64,000 nt of DNA from the NCBI RefSeq assembly GCF_900119895.1, contig NZ_FQLR01000003.1, forward strand, positions 248,001-312,000, written 5' to 3'. Below the pieces are notes generated by a model. That model was not told the origin of the DNA and did no database searches. It saw only the letters and a list, made by a program, of their open reading frames with translations. A program made the translations under genes and the position numbers. Below, piece after piece: positions 47,514 through 61,613 of the stretch; positions within the stretch are counted from its first letter, which is position 1, and each line of letters begins with the position of its first letter. Source of the stretch: Collinsella phocaeensis (GTDB lineage: Bacteria > Actinomycetota > Coriobacteriia > Coriobacteriales > Coriobacteriaceae).

Positions 47514-48341
47514 CTACATGCCGCGCAGACGTCCTGCCAGGCGATCAAGCACCTGGGGAGAGATGCCTGCATGGCCCTCGAGATACGCCCGCGCCGTTCC
47601 GTACCGCTCATGGAGATGCACGAGCGTCAACTCCATCTCGGACGGTACGGCCTCGAACAGGCAGCGCGGGGCGCGGCGGCGCAGGGCGATCGACACGGCG
47701 ACGCGCTGCGCGCGCAGCCCGCGACCGAGATAGCGCTGGGTGGCAGCGTAGTCCGCCACGATGTCGCCATCGGATACGCCCGCAAGACCGAGGAGCAGCA
47801 TCGCGATGACGCCCGTGCGGTCCTTGCCCGCCCGGCAGTGGAACAGCGCGCACCCCGATGCCCCATCTGAATCGAGGGCCGTCATGACCTGGGCGATGCT
47901 GGCACCGTCGTTATCGAGTAGGCTCTTGTACACCGTGAGCATGCGGTCCGGAAGCGCATCGCGAAACCCGTTTGAATTCAGCTGGTCGAGCATGGGGACG
48001 TGCGTGTAGACCACGCCATCGCGACCGCCGGCGTACGGATCCGGCCAATGGGACACCTCGAATCCGCTGCGCAAGTCCACCACGCGCGCCAGGCCGCCGT
48101 CTCCATACGAGCGCAGGAACGCGAAGTCGGCCTCGCGGAGACGCCGAAGCGACGGAGCGCGTAGGAAGACGCCTGCGGCCGTGGTGCCGCACCCGCCGTC
48201 CTCATCCGTAAACGCCAGGCCGCCGAGATCGCGCACGTTGTGGACGTGCCCGAGAGGGAGCTCGCCGCGATCGGGCGCGGCCGACGGCGCATGCGAGTCG
48301 CAGGCACCGGCAGCCCGGATCCCTTCTGACTCCGTTTTCAT
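47514..48341 (-). CDS. Tyrosine-protein phosphatase (Y_phosphatase3-like)
   Basis: The 275-residue protein has the VHNVRDLGGLA opening, FLRAPSLRRLREAD, VVDLRSGFE, and the P-loop FHCRAGKDRTGV with catalytic Cys and Arg (CxxxxxR). This pattern fits the bacterial tyrosine/dual-specificity phosphatase family with LipA/MptpB-type topology. It may dephosphorylate proteins, or phosphoinositides as MptpB can. The ATG at 48341 has AAGGAGG upstream. The gene follows the LtaS-type gene convergently; no kinase is adjacent. Confidence 0.88.
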   Translation of the reverse strand: MKTESEGIRAAGACDSHAPSAAPDRGELPLGHVHNVRDLGGLAFTDEDGGCGTTAAGVFLRAPSLRRLREADFAFLRSYGDGGLARVVDLRSGFEVSHWPDPYAGGRDGVVYTHVPMLDQLNSNGFRDALPDRMLTVYKSLLDNDGASIAQVMTALDSDGASGCALFHCRAGKDRTGVIAMLLLGLAGVSDGDIVADYAATQRYLGRGLRAQRVAVSIALRRRAPRCLFEAVPSEMELTLVHLHERYGTARAYLEGHAGISPQVLDRLAGRLRGM

Positions 48342-48545
48342 TCCCGCCTCCTTCGCGACGCGATCGGGGCGCCCCGGCCATCGCCGAAGCGCCTCTTCGT
48401 AGCCTACATGGTAGCGCCTCCCTCGACGCGATTTCTTACAGAGTGCTTACGTCTAGCAGAAGGTCGATGCGAACGATGGGCACGGACCGCAACGGCGTAG
48501 GTCACCGTTTTCGCTGGAGGGCATGCGGGTGCCAGGCGACACGGA

Positions 48546-50999
48546 TTAGAGGGAATCCTCACCTCGATCGTGCGCGAACTTCTGCCCGAGGACGCCGGCC
48601 ACGAGCGCGCCGAGGCCCAGAATTCCGACGGCTGTCGAAGGGTTGGCATCGCCCGTCTGAGGCAACCCGCCGTTCGTCTTGCCCGGGGTCCCCGAACCCG
48701 AGCCAGTGCTTCCGTTCGAGCCGGAGCCGGACCCCGCTCCGCTGCCGGAGCCGATGCCACCGGCACCGCCCGCCGCCCAGTTGGGGTCGGTGAGCGTCGC
48801 GCCCAGCGCGAGCTTGCGATCGGTCGTCGTATTGGAGTCGTGGGTCAAGGTGCAGAGCGCACCGTAGGCCAGCTCGGCGACCGACGGGATGTTGGGGATC
48901 ATGTTCGCGGGGTTATCGCCCAGAAAGCCCAGGACGGAGCCGACGTTGCTCGCGACCAGGCCGATCAGCATGATGGGGCCCGTCCCCTGATCCTTCACGC
49001 ACAGGTCGGACAGCTTCAGGCTCACCTTCTTCAGCAGCTTGGTCAGCGCGGCGAGATTGTTCTCCTCGTTCAGCGCGGCGCGCAGGAAGCTGATAAGCGA
49101 GCCGTCGGCAGCCGCCGCGCCCGCCTCGTCGGAGCCCGTGAGCTTGATGTTCGCCGTAGCCGCCTCCACCCAGGCGGGGCAGGCCTCATCGCCGAAGAGA
49201 TGGTCGCCGTATGCGAACTTGACGAGGTCGAACAGGGTCTTCCCCTCGGCATCAACCTGCTGGGCCAGCAGCGTCTCGACCAGCGCGCGCAACAGCGCGA
49301 GGGTATCCGACTTGCCGTTCTGCAGGATCCCCGTATCGATCTTGGAATAGATCGTCGCCATGAACTTCGCGAAGGACGCGTCATCGATGTAGCAGGACTA
49401 GTACTTCCCGGCAGCGTACGTCATGGGAGTCGCCGCCACCACCGCCTCCAGCTCGGCGACCGCCTCGGGCGTGGGATCGAGCGCGAACGTCTGCACGCCC
49501 TGGGCCTGAACATCCATGCGCTCGAGAATGATGCGGGAGGCGGCGGCATCGGCCCAGATGCCCGGCGTGCCGTAGCTCTTGATGAGCATGCTCAGGTCGC
49601 CCAGGTCCATCGTGATTGCCGCATCTTTCGACTGAGGCAGCGCCGTGCACAGCAATCCGAATAGCGATGCATCGAGCGTATCGACCGTCACGCCCTCGAC
49701 ACCGAAGCTGCCCATGAGGCCGGCGAGCGCGGGCTTCACGCCGCCGTTCGCGACCATCTCGTCGATCATCGGGGAGACCAGCGTATCGGCGATCATCGTC
49801 TTCACCACGTCGACCGTGAGCAGACGCTCGTCGCCGTAGGCGGTGATGTCCTCGATGGCCTGCGGCTCGTTCGTGGCGAAATCCCGATAGTCGACCGCGC
49901 CCAGCGCGTGGTTCTCCACGGCGAGCGTCGCGTTCACCGTCGCCGTACCGGCCTCGCGCTCCCACGAAAGCGTAGCGAAGCGGATGCCGCTCGGATAGGT
50001 GGCAGTCGCGCAGGTCTCGATGTCGTAGAGCACGTTGCCCGCATCCGTCTTGATGCTCGCGATGTCGTTCGCGTGCATATGGCCGGTGAACACCGCGGAG
50101 ATGCCCGCATCGGCGTAGCGGCGCTGGCACTCCTCGTAGTTATCCGCCAGGTACTCACCCATGGGCCGGGGCTCCATGTCGAAATGGGGCACGATGCCGT
50201 GGTGCTGCATCGCGATAACGATGTCGCCGGCGGCGCGGGCCTGCTTCGCCTGGCTCTCGACCTAGGCGAGCAGCTTCTCTCCCACCACGCCCGAGGTGAC
50301 GTGCTCGTCGCGATCGAGGCCGTTCTGATCGCTGGAATACTTGCCGGAGTCGACCACGATCAGCGTGATGCCCTTGACGGGGCGCACCGCGTAGGAGAGG
50401 CTTCCGCCGCGCGTGCCGCCCTCATCGAACTTCGCGATGGCGGCATCGTAGCCGCAATCGGCCCACAGGTCCTTGAACGCGAGGGGATCGACCAGGTCGG
50501 TATGCTCTGCGGCACCGCTGGAGAAGTCGCGGCCGTTGTCGTCGTTGTTGATATCGTGGTTGCCGTTGATGACACAGAAGAGCGTCTGCTTGCCGGCCGC
50601 CGCGAGCTCCTTGCGGGCAGCGACGATCTTGTCGTGCACCTCGGTATGGCAGATCAGCTCGCCGTCCTTGGTAAGGTCGCCGGAAACGAGCACCAGATCG
50701 GGCTGGTACACCACGATTTCCGCCAGAGCCTTGTCGATGATCGCGCCGGAATCCTTGAACATCTTGCGGTCGGAATTCTCCGCGATCGTGAAGTCCTCGC
50801 AATCCGACCACAGGCTCTTCGAGAAGTAATGGAGGTCGGAGATATGGGCGATCTTGATCTGCTAGGGATAGTCGGCACCGGACCCGGCCGTCTCGGCGGC
50901 CGCCTCGGCTGGGCTCATCGAGCACGCGGCAGCAGCGACACCCGCGCCCACGACGGAGAAACGAACGAAATTGCGACGGCTTATCGTCTGCTGTGGCAT
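48546..50999 (-). pseudogene. Secreted LPxTG metallophosphoesterase with three in-frame TAG codons
   Basis: One unbroken frame of 817 sense codons plus stop carries all parts of a surface metallophosphoesterase: a twin-arginine-like signal (SRRNFVRFSVVG), IAHISDLHY, GDLTKDGE, GNHD, MQHHGIV, GHMHAND, and a C-terminal LPQTG with hydrophobic stretch and basic end. TAG codons interrupt it at codons 46 (50862-50864), 246 (50262-50264) and 534 (49398-49400). There is no frameshift. Normal decoding gives only a 45-residue signal stub. It is either a recent pseudogene or a readthrough gene. Elsewhere in the window TAG is an ordinary stop, so general reassignment is unlikely. GGGAG lies upstream of the ATG at 50999. 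Confidence 0.85.
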
Positions 51000-51176
51000 A
51001 ACACTGGCTCCCATCACGTATGTGCATAGAAAAGACCGCGATGCGGTCCGCACCCAAGTATGGGGAGCGCGTGTTAGCGCAAGAGCGAATCGATGTCAGC
51101 CAATCGGCATGATCGTGCAAGAACTATCATGCGCGTACCCGAATAGTAAGCGATTTGCAAAGACCTCAAATTGGGG

Positions 51177-51306
51177 CCTCAGATTGGGGACAGGCACCAA
51201 TTTGAGACCTACAGATTGGCGCCTGTCCCCAGGCAGGGCCTCAGGTCGGCGCCCGTCCCCTTAGGCCGGGCCGGGCCTCAGATTGGTGCCTGTCCCCTAT
51301 TTGAGA
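51177..51306. repeat. REP-like cluster D
   Basis: One forward unit (51178-51207, core GGGGACAGGCACC) is followed by three reverse units (about 51212-51233, 51239-51264 and 51275-51306), of which the first two are degenerate. The cluster fills most of the 329-base gap between the metallophosphoesterase start and the ABC permease end. Confidence 0.75.
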
Positions 51307-51328
51307 GGCGCCAATCCGAGGTTGCGGC

Positions 51329-52039
51329 TTATAGGTCGCGCGCGGAATAGATGCGCAGGGAGATCGCACAGCTCACCGCGTAGCACACCAGACCGAACGC
51401 GCACGCACCCGCGGCGAACGCCGCCAGGCCCTCCGGCGTCTGTGCAAAAGCAAACGCGCGCTGCGCCGCCATCATGGCCTCCCCGCCCATGAAACCGACA
51501 ATCATGAACGGCGCGACGCCCAAAAACATCATAATGAAGGGTAGCCACTGCGTCGCCTTGGTCTGTCCGAACTTGAAGAACACCGGCATGGACACCGACG
51601 CGATGACGAACCCCACGGCGCTGCAGAATGCCAGCGTGAACAGCCCCGCCTGCATCGCGTCCGCATCGAGCCGGACCACGCGCGCGACCACCTCGGGCAG
51701 CATGGAGGCCTGGCCGAGCATCGACAGGACGAGCGCCGCGGCGGCGACGAGCAGCGATACGGACAGCGCCCCGGCGAGCACGAACAGATACCGCCCGAGG
51801 ACGACCTCCCTACGCGAGACGGGCATGGTCAGGCGGAACGCCGCCCAGCCGTTGTGTTCGTCATAGTTGCTCGCGCTGCTGGACAGGCTGAACATCCCCA
51901 TCATGAAGATGATTCCCGGCAGCGCCGACGTGTTGCCCGTTCCTGCCGCGAAGCACACCGCCATGAACAAGATACTGAAGGACAGCTGCTTGAGGTACTG
52001 ACCGAACACGACAAGCTCCATCTTGGCCATACGCATCAT
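51329..52039 (-). CDS. ABC-2-type transporter permease
   Basis: The 236-residue protein has six hydrophobic helices typical of an ABC-2 permease (for example LVCYAVSCAISLRIYSARD at the C-terminus and MMGMFSLSSSASNYDEHNGW in the first loop). It should form an exporter or ABC-2 membrane complex with the ATPase encoded upstream, whose stop overlaps its ATG by 4 bases. AAAGGAGG lies 10 bases before the ATG at 52039. It is the last gene of a GntR-ATPase-permease operon. Substrate unknown; YtrA-type operons often respond to cell-wall-active compounds. Confidence 0.85.
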   Translation of the reverse strand: MMRMAKMELVVFGQYLKQLSFSILFMAVCFAAGTGNTSALPGIIFMMGMFSLSSSASNYDEHNGWAAFRLTMPVSRREVVLGRYLFVLAGALSVSLLVAAAALVLSMLGQASMLPEVVARVVRLDADAMQAGLFTLAFCSAVGFVIASVSMPVFFKFGQTKATQWLPFIMMFLGVAPFMIVGFMGGEAMMAAQRAFAFAQTPEGLAAFAAGACAFGLVCYAVSCAISLRIYSARDL

Positions 52040-52992
52040 CGCGCATCGCCTCCTTTCGCAGCCGCTCCGCGCGGATGCAGCACCGAGCCCTTGAGCATGA
52101 GCGCCATGTAATCGTCGATGGTCACACGGTCGCACGGAATCCGTGGGAACACGCGGGCGAACTCGAAGCGGTCCGGCACCAGCACGTCCACACCGTAGTC
52201 GTGGTGCAGCACGCGCAGCTCGTCCGGCGCGGACGGGCTCGCCAGCACATGCTCGGCCTCCGCCGCGCGACAGCGCGCCACGCCCATGAGGTCGCAGATC
52301 TCGTCCTTGGAACAAGCGAACACGATGCGGCCCTCGTCGATGCACACCACCTCGTCGGCGATCTTGTCCAGGTCGCTCGTGATGTGGCTGCTCATGAGGA
52401 TCGCGTGGCACGGCTCACCCGACGCGTCCTCAACAGCGACGAATTCGCGCAGCATGTCGAGCACCTCGTCGCGCGCCATCGGGTCGAGTCCCGCCGTGGC
52501 CTCGTCCAAAATAAGCACCTGGGGGTCGTGCGCCAATGCGCACGCCAGGCTCAGCTTCATCCCCATGCCGCGGGAAAGCTCCTTGATGGCCTTGGCGTCG
52601 TCCAGTTTGAGCTGGACGAGGTTGCGCTCGAACGCCGATGCGTCCCAGGTTGCATACACACGGGACATCAGCTTGCCGACCTCGCGCACCCTCATGTGCG
52701 GAGGCATCGAGACGGTGTCGAACACCACGCCGATGCGCTCCTTTACCGCGGCCGACGATGCGGACAGCTCGCGCGGCGAGGCACCCAGCACCCGGACCTC
52801 TCCCCCGTCGAGTTCGATCAGCCCCAGCAGCGCCTTGATGGTGGTGGACTTTCCGGCGCCGTTCTGGCCGATGAAGCCCACGATCTGACCAGGCTCCACC
52901 GCAAAGCTGACCTGCTGCAACGCAAATCCGTCATAGCGTTTGATGACGCCATGCGCCTCGATAAGCGGCGCGCCCGCAAACGATGTCGTCAT
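52036..52992 (-). CDS. ABC transporter ATP-binding protein
   Basis: The 318-residue ATPase has Walker A GQNGAGKST, Q-loop region VVFDTVSMPPH, signature-like ELSRGMGMK, Walker B VLILDEATAGLDP, and switch His in MSSHITSDLDK. A C-terminal extension of about 90 residues is typical of the ABC-2/bacitracin subfamily. The start at 52992 lies 2 bases from the end of the GntR gene, and the end overlaps the permease start by 4 bases. It should energise the permease in export, probably of antibiotics or lipids. Confidence 0.92.
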   Translation of the reverse strand: MTTSFAGAPLIEAHGVIKRYDGFALQQVSFAVEPGQIVGFIGQNGAGKSTTIKALLGLIELDGGEVRVLGASPRELSASSAAVKERIGVVFDTVSMPPHMRVREVGKLMSRVYATWDASAFERNLVQLKLDDAKAIKELSRGMGMKLSLACALAHDPQVLILDEATAGLDPMARDEVLDMLREFVAVEDASGEPCHAILMSSHITSDLDKIADEVVCIDEGRIVFACSKDEICDLMGVARCRAAEAEHVLASPSAPDELRVLHHDYGVDVLVPDRFEFARVFPRIPCDRVTIDDYMALMLKGSVLHPRGAAAKGGDAR

Positions 52993-52994
52993 AG

Positions 52995-53372
52995 TTAGTC
53001 GTCACTCTCCAAAAGGGTGCTTATCATCTCGATGAGCTCGCCATCGCCCAACCCGAGCGCGCGACCCGCCTCGATCGCCTGGCCAAGACGCTCCTCGATC
53101 TCGCGAAGGCGCTCCTCGCGAAGCAGATCGGCGTTGCCACCCGCCACGAAGCTGCCTTTGCCCTGCACGGTCTCGATGAACCCTTGGGATTCCAGGTCGG
53201 TATAGGCGCGCTTGGTGGTGATCGCGCTCACCCGCAAGCTGTTGGCGAGCGCGCGAATCGAGGGGAGCTGCTCGCCCGCCGCGAGTTCGCCCGCCATGAT
53301 CTGATCTTTGATCTGGCTGGTTATCTGCTCGTAGATGGGTTTCGAGCTTGAGTTCGAGATGATGATTTCCAC
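52995..53372 (-). CDS. GntR-family regulator, YtrA type
   Basis: The 125-residue regulator has the short YtrA architecture: a winged helix domain (SSSKPIYEQITSQIKDQIM, GEQLPSIRALANSLRVSAIT, AYTDLESQGFIETVQGKGSF) and a 40-residue helical dimerisation tail with no effector domain. It is the first gene of the operon, with 2 bases to the ATPase. It probably represses the operon by binding the 24-bp palindrome upstream and is released on cell-wall or membrane stress. The GTG start at 53372 has AAGGAA upstream. Confidence 0.92.
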   Translation of the reverse strand: MEIIISNSSSKPIYEQITSQIKDQIMAGELAAGEQLPSIRALANSLRVSAITTKRAYTDLESQGFIETVQGKGSFVAGGNADLLREERLREIEERLGQAIEAGRALGLGDGELIEMISTLLESDD

Positions 53373-61241: not shown

Positions 61242-61613
61242 CTAGGCCTCGGGAGCTGCCTCGGGGGCGACGGACTCGACCACGACGTCGGCGGCGGGGG
61301 TGACCGAGCCGGTGGCGATGGCGTCGTTCAGCTGCTCGCGCAGCTGGTCCATGCGCTCGCGGGCCAGATCGACCTTGGCGCGGAGCTCGTCGGTCTTGGC
61401 GTCCATCATCGGGCCGAAATCGCTCGCGGCGGCGCGGGCCTGGTCGACCCCCTGCTCGTACATGTCGCGGGCGGAATCCCAGGCGTCATTGGCCATATCC
61501 GCGGCCATGGCGCGGGTCTCGGCGCCGGAGCGCGGGGCCACCAGGATGCCGATGATCGTGCCTGCGGCTGCACCGAGCGCGGCACCTGCGACGAAACTGA
61601 ATCCCTTGCCCAT
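61242..61613 (-). CDS. YtxH-like small protein
   Basis: The 123-residue protein has a Gly/Ala-rich hydrophobic N-terminus (GFSFVAGAALGAAAGTIIGI) followed by LVAPRSGAETRA, the typical YtxH-type start. A long charged helix (coiled-coil-like, AKVDLARERMDQLREQL) and a Pro/Ala/Val-rich tail follow. The hydrophobic part likely inserts in the membrane. Family role is general stress or envelope related; no function is established. AAGGAGGAG precedes the ATG. It couples to the PRC protein by adjacent stop and start. Confidence 0.8.
   Translation of the reverse strand: MGKGFSFVAGAALGAAAGTIIGILVAPRSGAETRAMAADMANDAWDSARDMYEQGVDQARAAASDFGPMMDAKTDELRAKVDLARERMDQLREQLNDAIATGSVTPAADVVVESVAPEAAPEA

Follow-up and report, generated by a model that had tools for sequence, protein, structure and literature searches.

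Three in-frame amber codons very probably mark a young pseudogene of a wall-anchored metallophosphoesterase in Collinsella

Introduction

Two described enzymes are closest to the gene studied here. The Listeria metallophosphoesterase Lmo2642 (PDB 2xmo), the one solved structure that a sequence search matched, aligns with residues 20-341 of the Collinsella frame (E 3.6e-26). It is 443 aa long, lacks the long matched C-terminal part of the Collinsella gene and is not known to carry an LPxTG signal. The phosphoesterase of Collinsella sp. BA40, the sole named relative with the gene in a genome contig search, is 66% identical over residues 1-816 (63% for the best segment). It shares the layout of signal, domain, linker and LPxTG motif (LPKTG in BA40) as well as an upstream ABC-2 permease, but its 823-aa frame has no internal stop.

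Ordinary bacterial nonsense pseudogenes provide a further point of reference. Like them, the gene is accessory and has its stops where relatives have sense codons; unlike them, it has acquired three stops without an indel, which points to a young age. In a literature search, the titles and opening parts of the abstracts listed mention neither the phosphoesterase gene nor amber readthrough in Collinsella.

The interrupted frame

The window is the whole stretch of DNA that was analysed, 64,000 nucleotides from Collinsella phocaeensis (G000:C3:248001-312000), in a genome of 2.1 Mb on 4 contigs that is 98.8% complete. On its minus strand, a frame of 818 codons (817 plus a terminal TAA at codon 818) runs from an ATG at 50999 to 48546. 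A first-pass annotation had described this frame as open except for TAG at codons 46, 246 and 534, with no frameshift, and a direct reading of the frame agrees.

48546..50999, minus strand: metallophosphoesterase (calcineurin-like), very probably a pseudogene (frame as read, PF00149, relatives)
50862..50864, minus strand: TAG codon 46, at a site that is variable in aligned relatives
50262..50264, minus strand: TAG codon 246, at a Trp site in relatives; flagged by a coding-potential scan
49398..49400, minus strand: TAG codon 534, at a site with Trp (TGG) in the genus copies L010, L011 and L012; flagged by the scan

The frame belongs to the calcineurin-like phosphoesterases: PF00149 matches residues 48-310, spanning the second TAG, with 51.6 bits against a cut-off of 21.5 (E 2.1e-13), and metal-site motifs can be recognized by eye. 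In fact, the DLH, GD, GNHD, HH and GHMH motifs and LPQTG, which the annotation had listed as retained, can all be found by eye in the interrupted frame. From signals seen by eye, we take the layout to be a twin-arginine-like signal peptide, a C-terminal Gly/Ser-rich linker and the LPQTG sorting signal. The first stop lies past the signal peptide, as previously noted, and translation would end there at about 45 residues. Membership of the DS9_1 anti-phage phosphoesterases (NF053862) is not indicated, the score being 51.9 bits against a curated cut-off of 420.

Residues at the stops in relatives

The phosphoesterase gene is present in 5 of 43 genus genomes, its own counted, and therefore looks dispensable; it was found in 7 of 58 genomes in a first search for relatives and in 10 of 65 in a family search. 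The four other genus copies, at 61-74% identity, are all free of stops within the matched part, which in the partial copy L013, at a contig end, covers residues 6-359 only. The BA40 gene (NZ_VOWY01000002.1, L020) is letter-identical to L011 of genome G020, and the two were counted once. Viral contigs gave no relatives, and phages gave five distant partial matches with 26-28% identity. Our main alignment comprises 11 relatives; the weak match L016 was compared apart, and L017-L019, which match the C-terminal tail only, were left out.

At the codon 46 site, the 11 aligned relatives have Ser, Ser, Asn, Asn, Gln, Asp, Ser, Glu, Asn, Val and Pro. At the codon 246 site, all 11 have Trp (TGG). Trp is also found there in L016, which makes 12 of 12, and in Lmo2642 when that enzyme is aligned to the BA40 relative, so that the Trp which the annotation had expected at LLA-TAG-VESQAK was correct. 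At the codon 534 site, the three full-length genus copies L010, L011 and L012 have Trp (TGG), L021 has Cys, and the remaining 7 of the 11 have a gap; an earlier alignment, unreliable in this region, put Cys and Tyr there in L014 and L015. TAG occurs at none of the three sites in the relatives compared, and there is no conserved in-frame TAG that would suggest recoding. Judged from these alignments, one recoded amino acid would not explain the three sites.

The annotation had proposed that sense codons in related strains would favour pseudogenisation, and that relatives with frameshifts and stops scattered elsewhere would count against its reading of the locus. Sense codons are found at all three sites; the scattered pattern is not, the relatives being intact where readable.

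These sense codons, together with the searches described below, in which no amber decoder was found, lead us to read the locus as a gene for an accessory metallophosphoesterase, exported and anchored in the wall, that has very probably become a pseudogene recently and through nonsense changes only. The verdict does not rest on the constraint tests. The enzyme would have lost its use in one Collinsella lineage, with selection lost before or along with the first stop, and point mutations would then have placed three stops in frame. Translation would stop just past the signal peptide, presumably leaving no enzyme. Against the pseudogene, the frame has no frameshift, the named catalytic motifs are kept, a branch model detects no significant loosening, the fairest contrast with neighbouring genes is not significant, and the number of stops is high for neutral change. 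By itself the locus is of small importance; it would record that one Collinsella lineage recently lost an accessory surface enzyme.

Expected number and kind of stops

For the three full-length genus relatives, all of them intact, we counted every possible single change under each of three mutation spectra that we assumed. TAG accounts for 67-75% of the possible nonsense changes, so the chance that three of three stops are amber is 0.30-0.42. Most possible nonsense changes in this GC-rich gene thus give TAG, and amber runs in such genes can mimic recoding.

Without selection, 26-37 missense changes would be expected for each nonsense change. The five sequences compared have 659 codon columns in common. 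Counting private changes at those columns at which the remaining three genus copies have the same residue gives 47 of 402 in this gene, compared to 24 of 379, 28 of 383 and 27 of 382 in the others. Scaled to about 780 codons, the missense excess is about 37, and 1.0-1.4 nonsense changes would be expected to accompany it; the chance of at least three is 0.08-0.18. Simple decay could account for the three stops, a number near the top of the neutral expectation. The chance that all 11 ligand residues, a number assumed for the fold, would remain unchanged under the extra rate estimated here is about 0.58, and the intact motifs therefore carry little weight.

Constraint tests and neighbouring genes

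In a branch codon model, omega is 0.066 for the branch of this gene versus 0.047, a gain in lnL of 0.42 that is not significant in what is a weak test. Run per segment, with synonymous change saturated, the test gives gains of 0.04, 1.73 and 0.00. Because of this saturation, the test is weak either way and would not reveal a recent loss. The only branch that stands out is that of L011, whose omega is lower (0.027 versus 0.059, lnL gain 2.5). The model was run on a single fixed tree, although the N- and C-terminal halves of the phosphoesterase give different trees against L010, L011 and L012. This difference suggests recombination, so that the genus copies may be mosaic and the private-change counts blurred.

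The genes around the phosphoesterase are open, and two of them served as a yardstick for private changes.

47514..48341, minus strand: tyrosine-phosphatase-family gene, open, downstream of the pseudogene (PF13350, frame)
51329..52039, minus strand: ABC-2 type permease, 236 aa, open, upstream of the pseudogene (PF13346, frame)
52036..52992, minus strand: ABC transporter ATPase, open (PF00005, frame)
52995..53372, minus strand: GntR-type regulator, open (PF00392, frame)

The permease also adjoins the homologous phosphoesterase gene in BA40. Among the other genus genomes compared, this arrangement is seen only in G020, the two genes lying on separate contigs in G005 and G033. The position of the ATPase gene follows the order in L020, whose sequence was read by eye, and an ATPase match was found in G020. 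Apparent permease matches with a TGA inside were rejected, since they arise from the first 124 residues of the query, which overlap the ATPase gene out of frame; the yardstick query was made without these residues.

Private changes in the ATPase and permease number 11 of 178 and 6 of 72 in this genome, 11 of 178 and 5 of 71 in G005, 14 of 181 and 15 of 81 in G020, and 29 of 196 and 27 of 93 in G033. When the phosphoesterase is compared with these neighbours by Fisher tests, p is 0.29 (G005), 0.008 (G020) and 3e-7 (G033). The neighbour trees pair this genome with G005, which makes G005 the fairest contrast, and that contrast is not significant. We dropped the G020 contrast as a sign of loosened selection because the neighbour trees place G005 as the sister; the G020 and G033 contrasts are inflated by tree shape.

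Other in-gene stops and the possibility of assembly error

The coding-potential scan covered the window and 40 stretches of 20 kb, or 864 kb of the 2.1 Mb, and flagged 27 stops with coding in the same frame on either side. Two of these are codons 246 and 534 of the phosphoesterase. By eye, 23 seem to be gene boundaries with a start codon nearby, and 2 at other loci resemble breaks inside a gene. The scan misses stops near gene starts, as with codon 46, which went unflagged, and regions with several stops; an earlier version run on 20 stretches did flag multi-stop regions, for example at L060:9471 and 9537. Within the window, the third of three flagged stops, a TAG at 61242, was rejected as an in-gene stop because it separates a YtxH gene from the gene that follows, with ATG directly after TAG.

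G000:C1:413524-415035 (L064:13524-15035): oligopeptide:H+ symporter split by one TAG at L064:13854 (TIGR00924 over 23-496)

None of the other 42 genus genomes contains a match to the symporter; in an order sample, 11 other genomes of 149 do. Its TAG site holds Ile in all seven of the distant relatives aligned (7 of the 11 matching), and the symporter and phosphoesterase TAGs have no replaced residue in common. The TGA at L087:16506 (plus strand) ends a TetR-like N-terminus, recognized by eye, and is followed by other in-frame coding-like sequence; the gene there is perhaps fused or broken. In-gene stops seem to be rare in this genome, yet not confined to the phosphoesterase.

The main rival to the pseudogene is error in assembly or base calling, by which the gene would be intact in the living strain and at least one TAG would be a miscall. 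The absence of a frameshift is consistent with such error, as are constraint tests that give no clear loosening. However, in-gene stops look rare elsewhere in the 864-kb scan, and the raised count of private changes would not arise from a few miscalls. We consider this explanation improbable.

Search for amber decoding

The first-pass annotation had offered readthrough or suppression as an alternative to recent nonsense changes, and had suggested looking for a suppressor tRNA or PylS. An Rfam search counts 50 tRNAs in the genome, and ARAGORN, run on the 30 stretches that hold tRNAs, also finds 50, none of which has a CTA anticodon. For PylS, a profile search gave one match of 26.1 bits, below the cut-off of 178.15; in control genomes, the same profile matches in 13 of 14 and exceeds the cut-off in one. 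Neither a CUA-anticodon tRNA nor, for pyrrolysine, PylS was thus found in the genome, although an unusual suppressor tRNA may have been missed by both searches or may lie in the missing 1% of the genome. RF1 is present, with 474.8 bits against a cut-off of 423.25 and a GGQ motif.

Stop codons were counted for the 162 genes called in 20 stretches of 20 kb: 98 use TAG, 46 TAA and 18 TGA. With so many genes ending in TAG and RF1 above its cut-off, the annotation's view that a code-wide reassignment of TAG is unlikely can be kept. In the window, the counts are 18 TAG, 7 TAA and 6 TGA; TAG is the commonest stop despite a GC content of 66.6%.

Conditional readthrough or amber suppression that yields a full-length enzyme would agree with the kept frame, motifs and sorting signal and with a dN/dS that does not change significantly. 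Against it, the relatives have no TAG at the three sites and differ in the residues found there, and the genome has RF1 together with the negative tRNA and PylS results. An efficient amber suppressor would also be expected to extend most proteins of this host, and the losses at three successive stops would multiply. We therefore regard readthrough as very unlikely, and of the two alternatives in the annotation, it is recent nonsense change, with sense codons in the relatives, that stands. Still a little less likely would be a triple-amber gate, in which the enzyme would be made only when some unrecognised condition lowers TAG termination in a host where most of the sampled genes end in TAG. 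Least likely are separate proteins from internal starts, for which there are ORFs of 166, 270 and 271 aa that begin with ATG (50762-50262, 50210-49398 and 49361-48546), but no piece keeps the signal peptide, the first lacks the DLH motif, and the full-length genus relatives have one frame.

Sequence upstream of the gene

A consensus scan of 48300-51400 gave no match to a sigma-70-like promoter. On the minus strand, a terminator-like hairpin lies at 51033-51049 of the window, just ahead of the pseudogene. The interval that separates the permease gene from the pseudogene holds, at 51165-51316 of the window, a cluster of direct and inverted repeats around the 13-mer GGTGCCTGTCCCC, which occurs 8 times in the window when both strands are counted.
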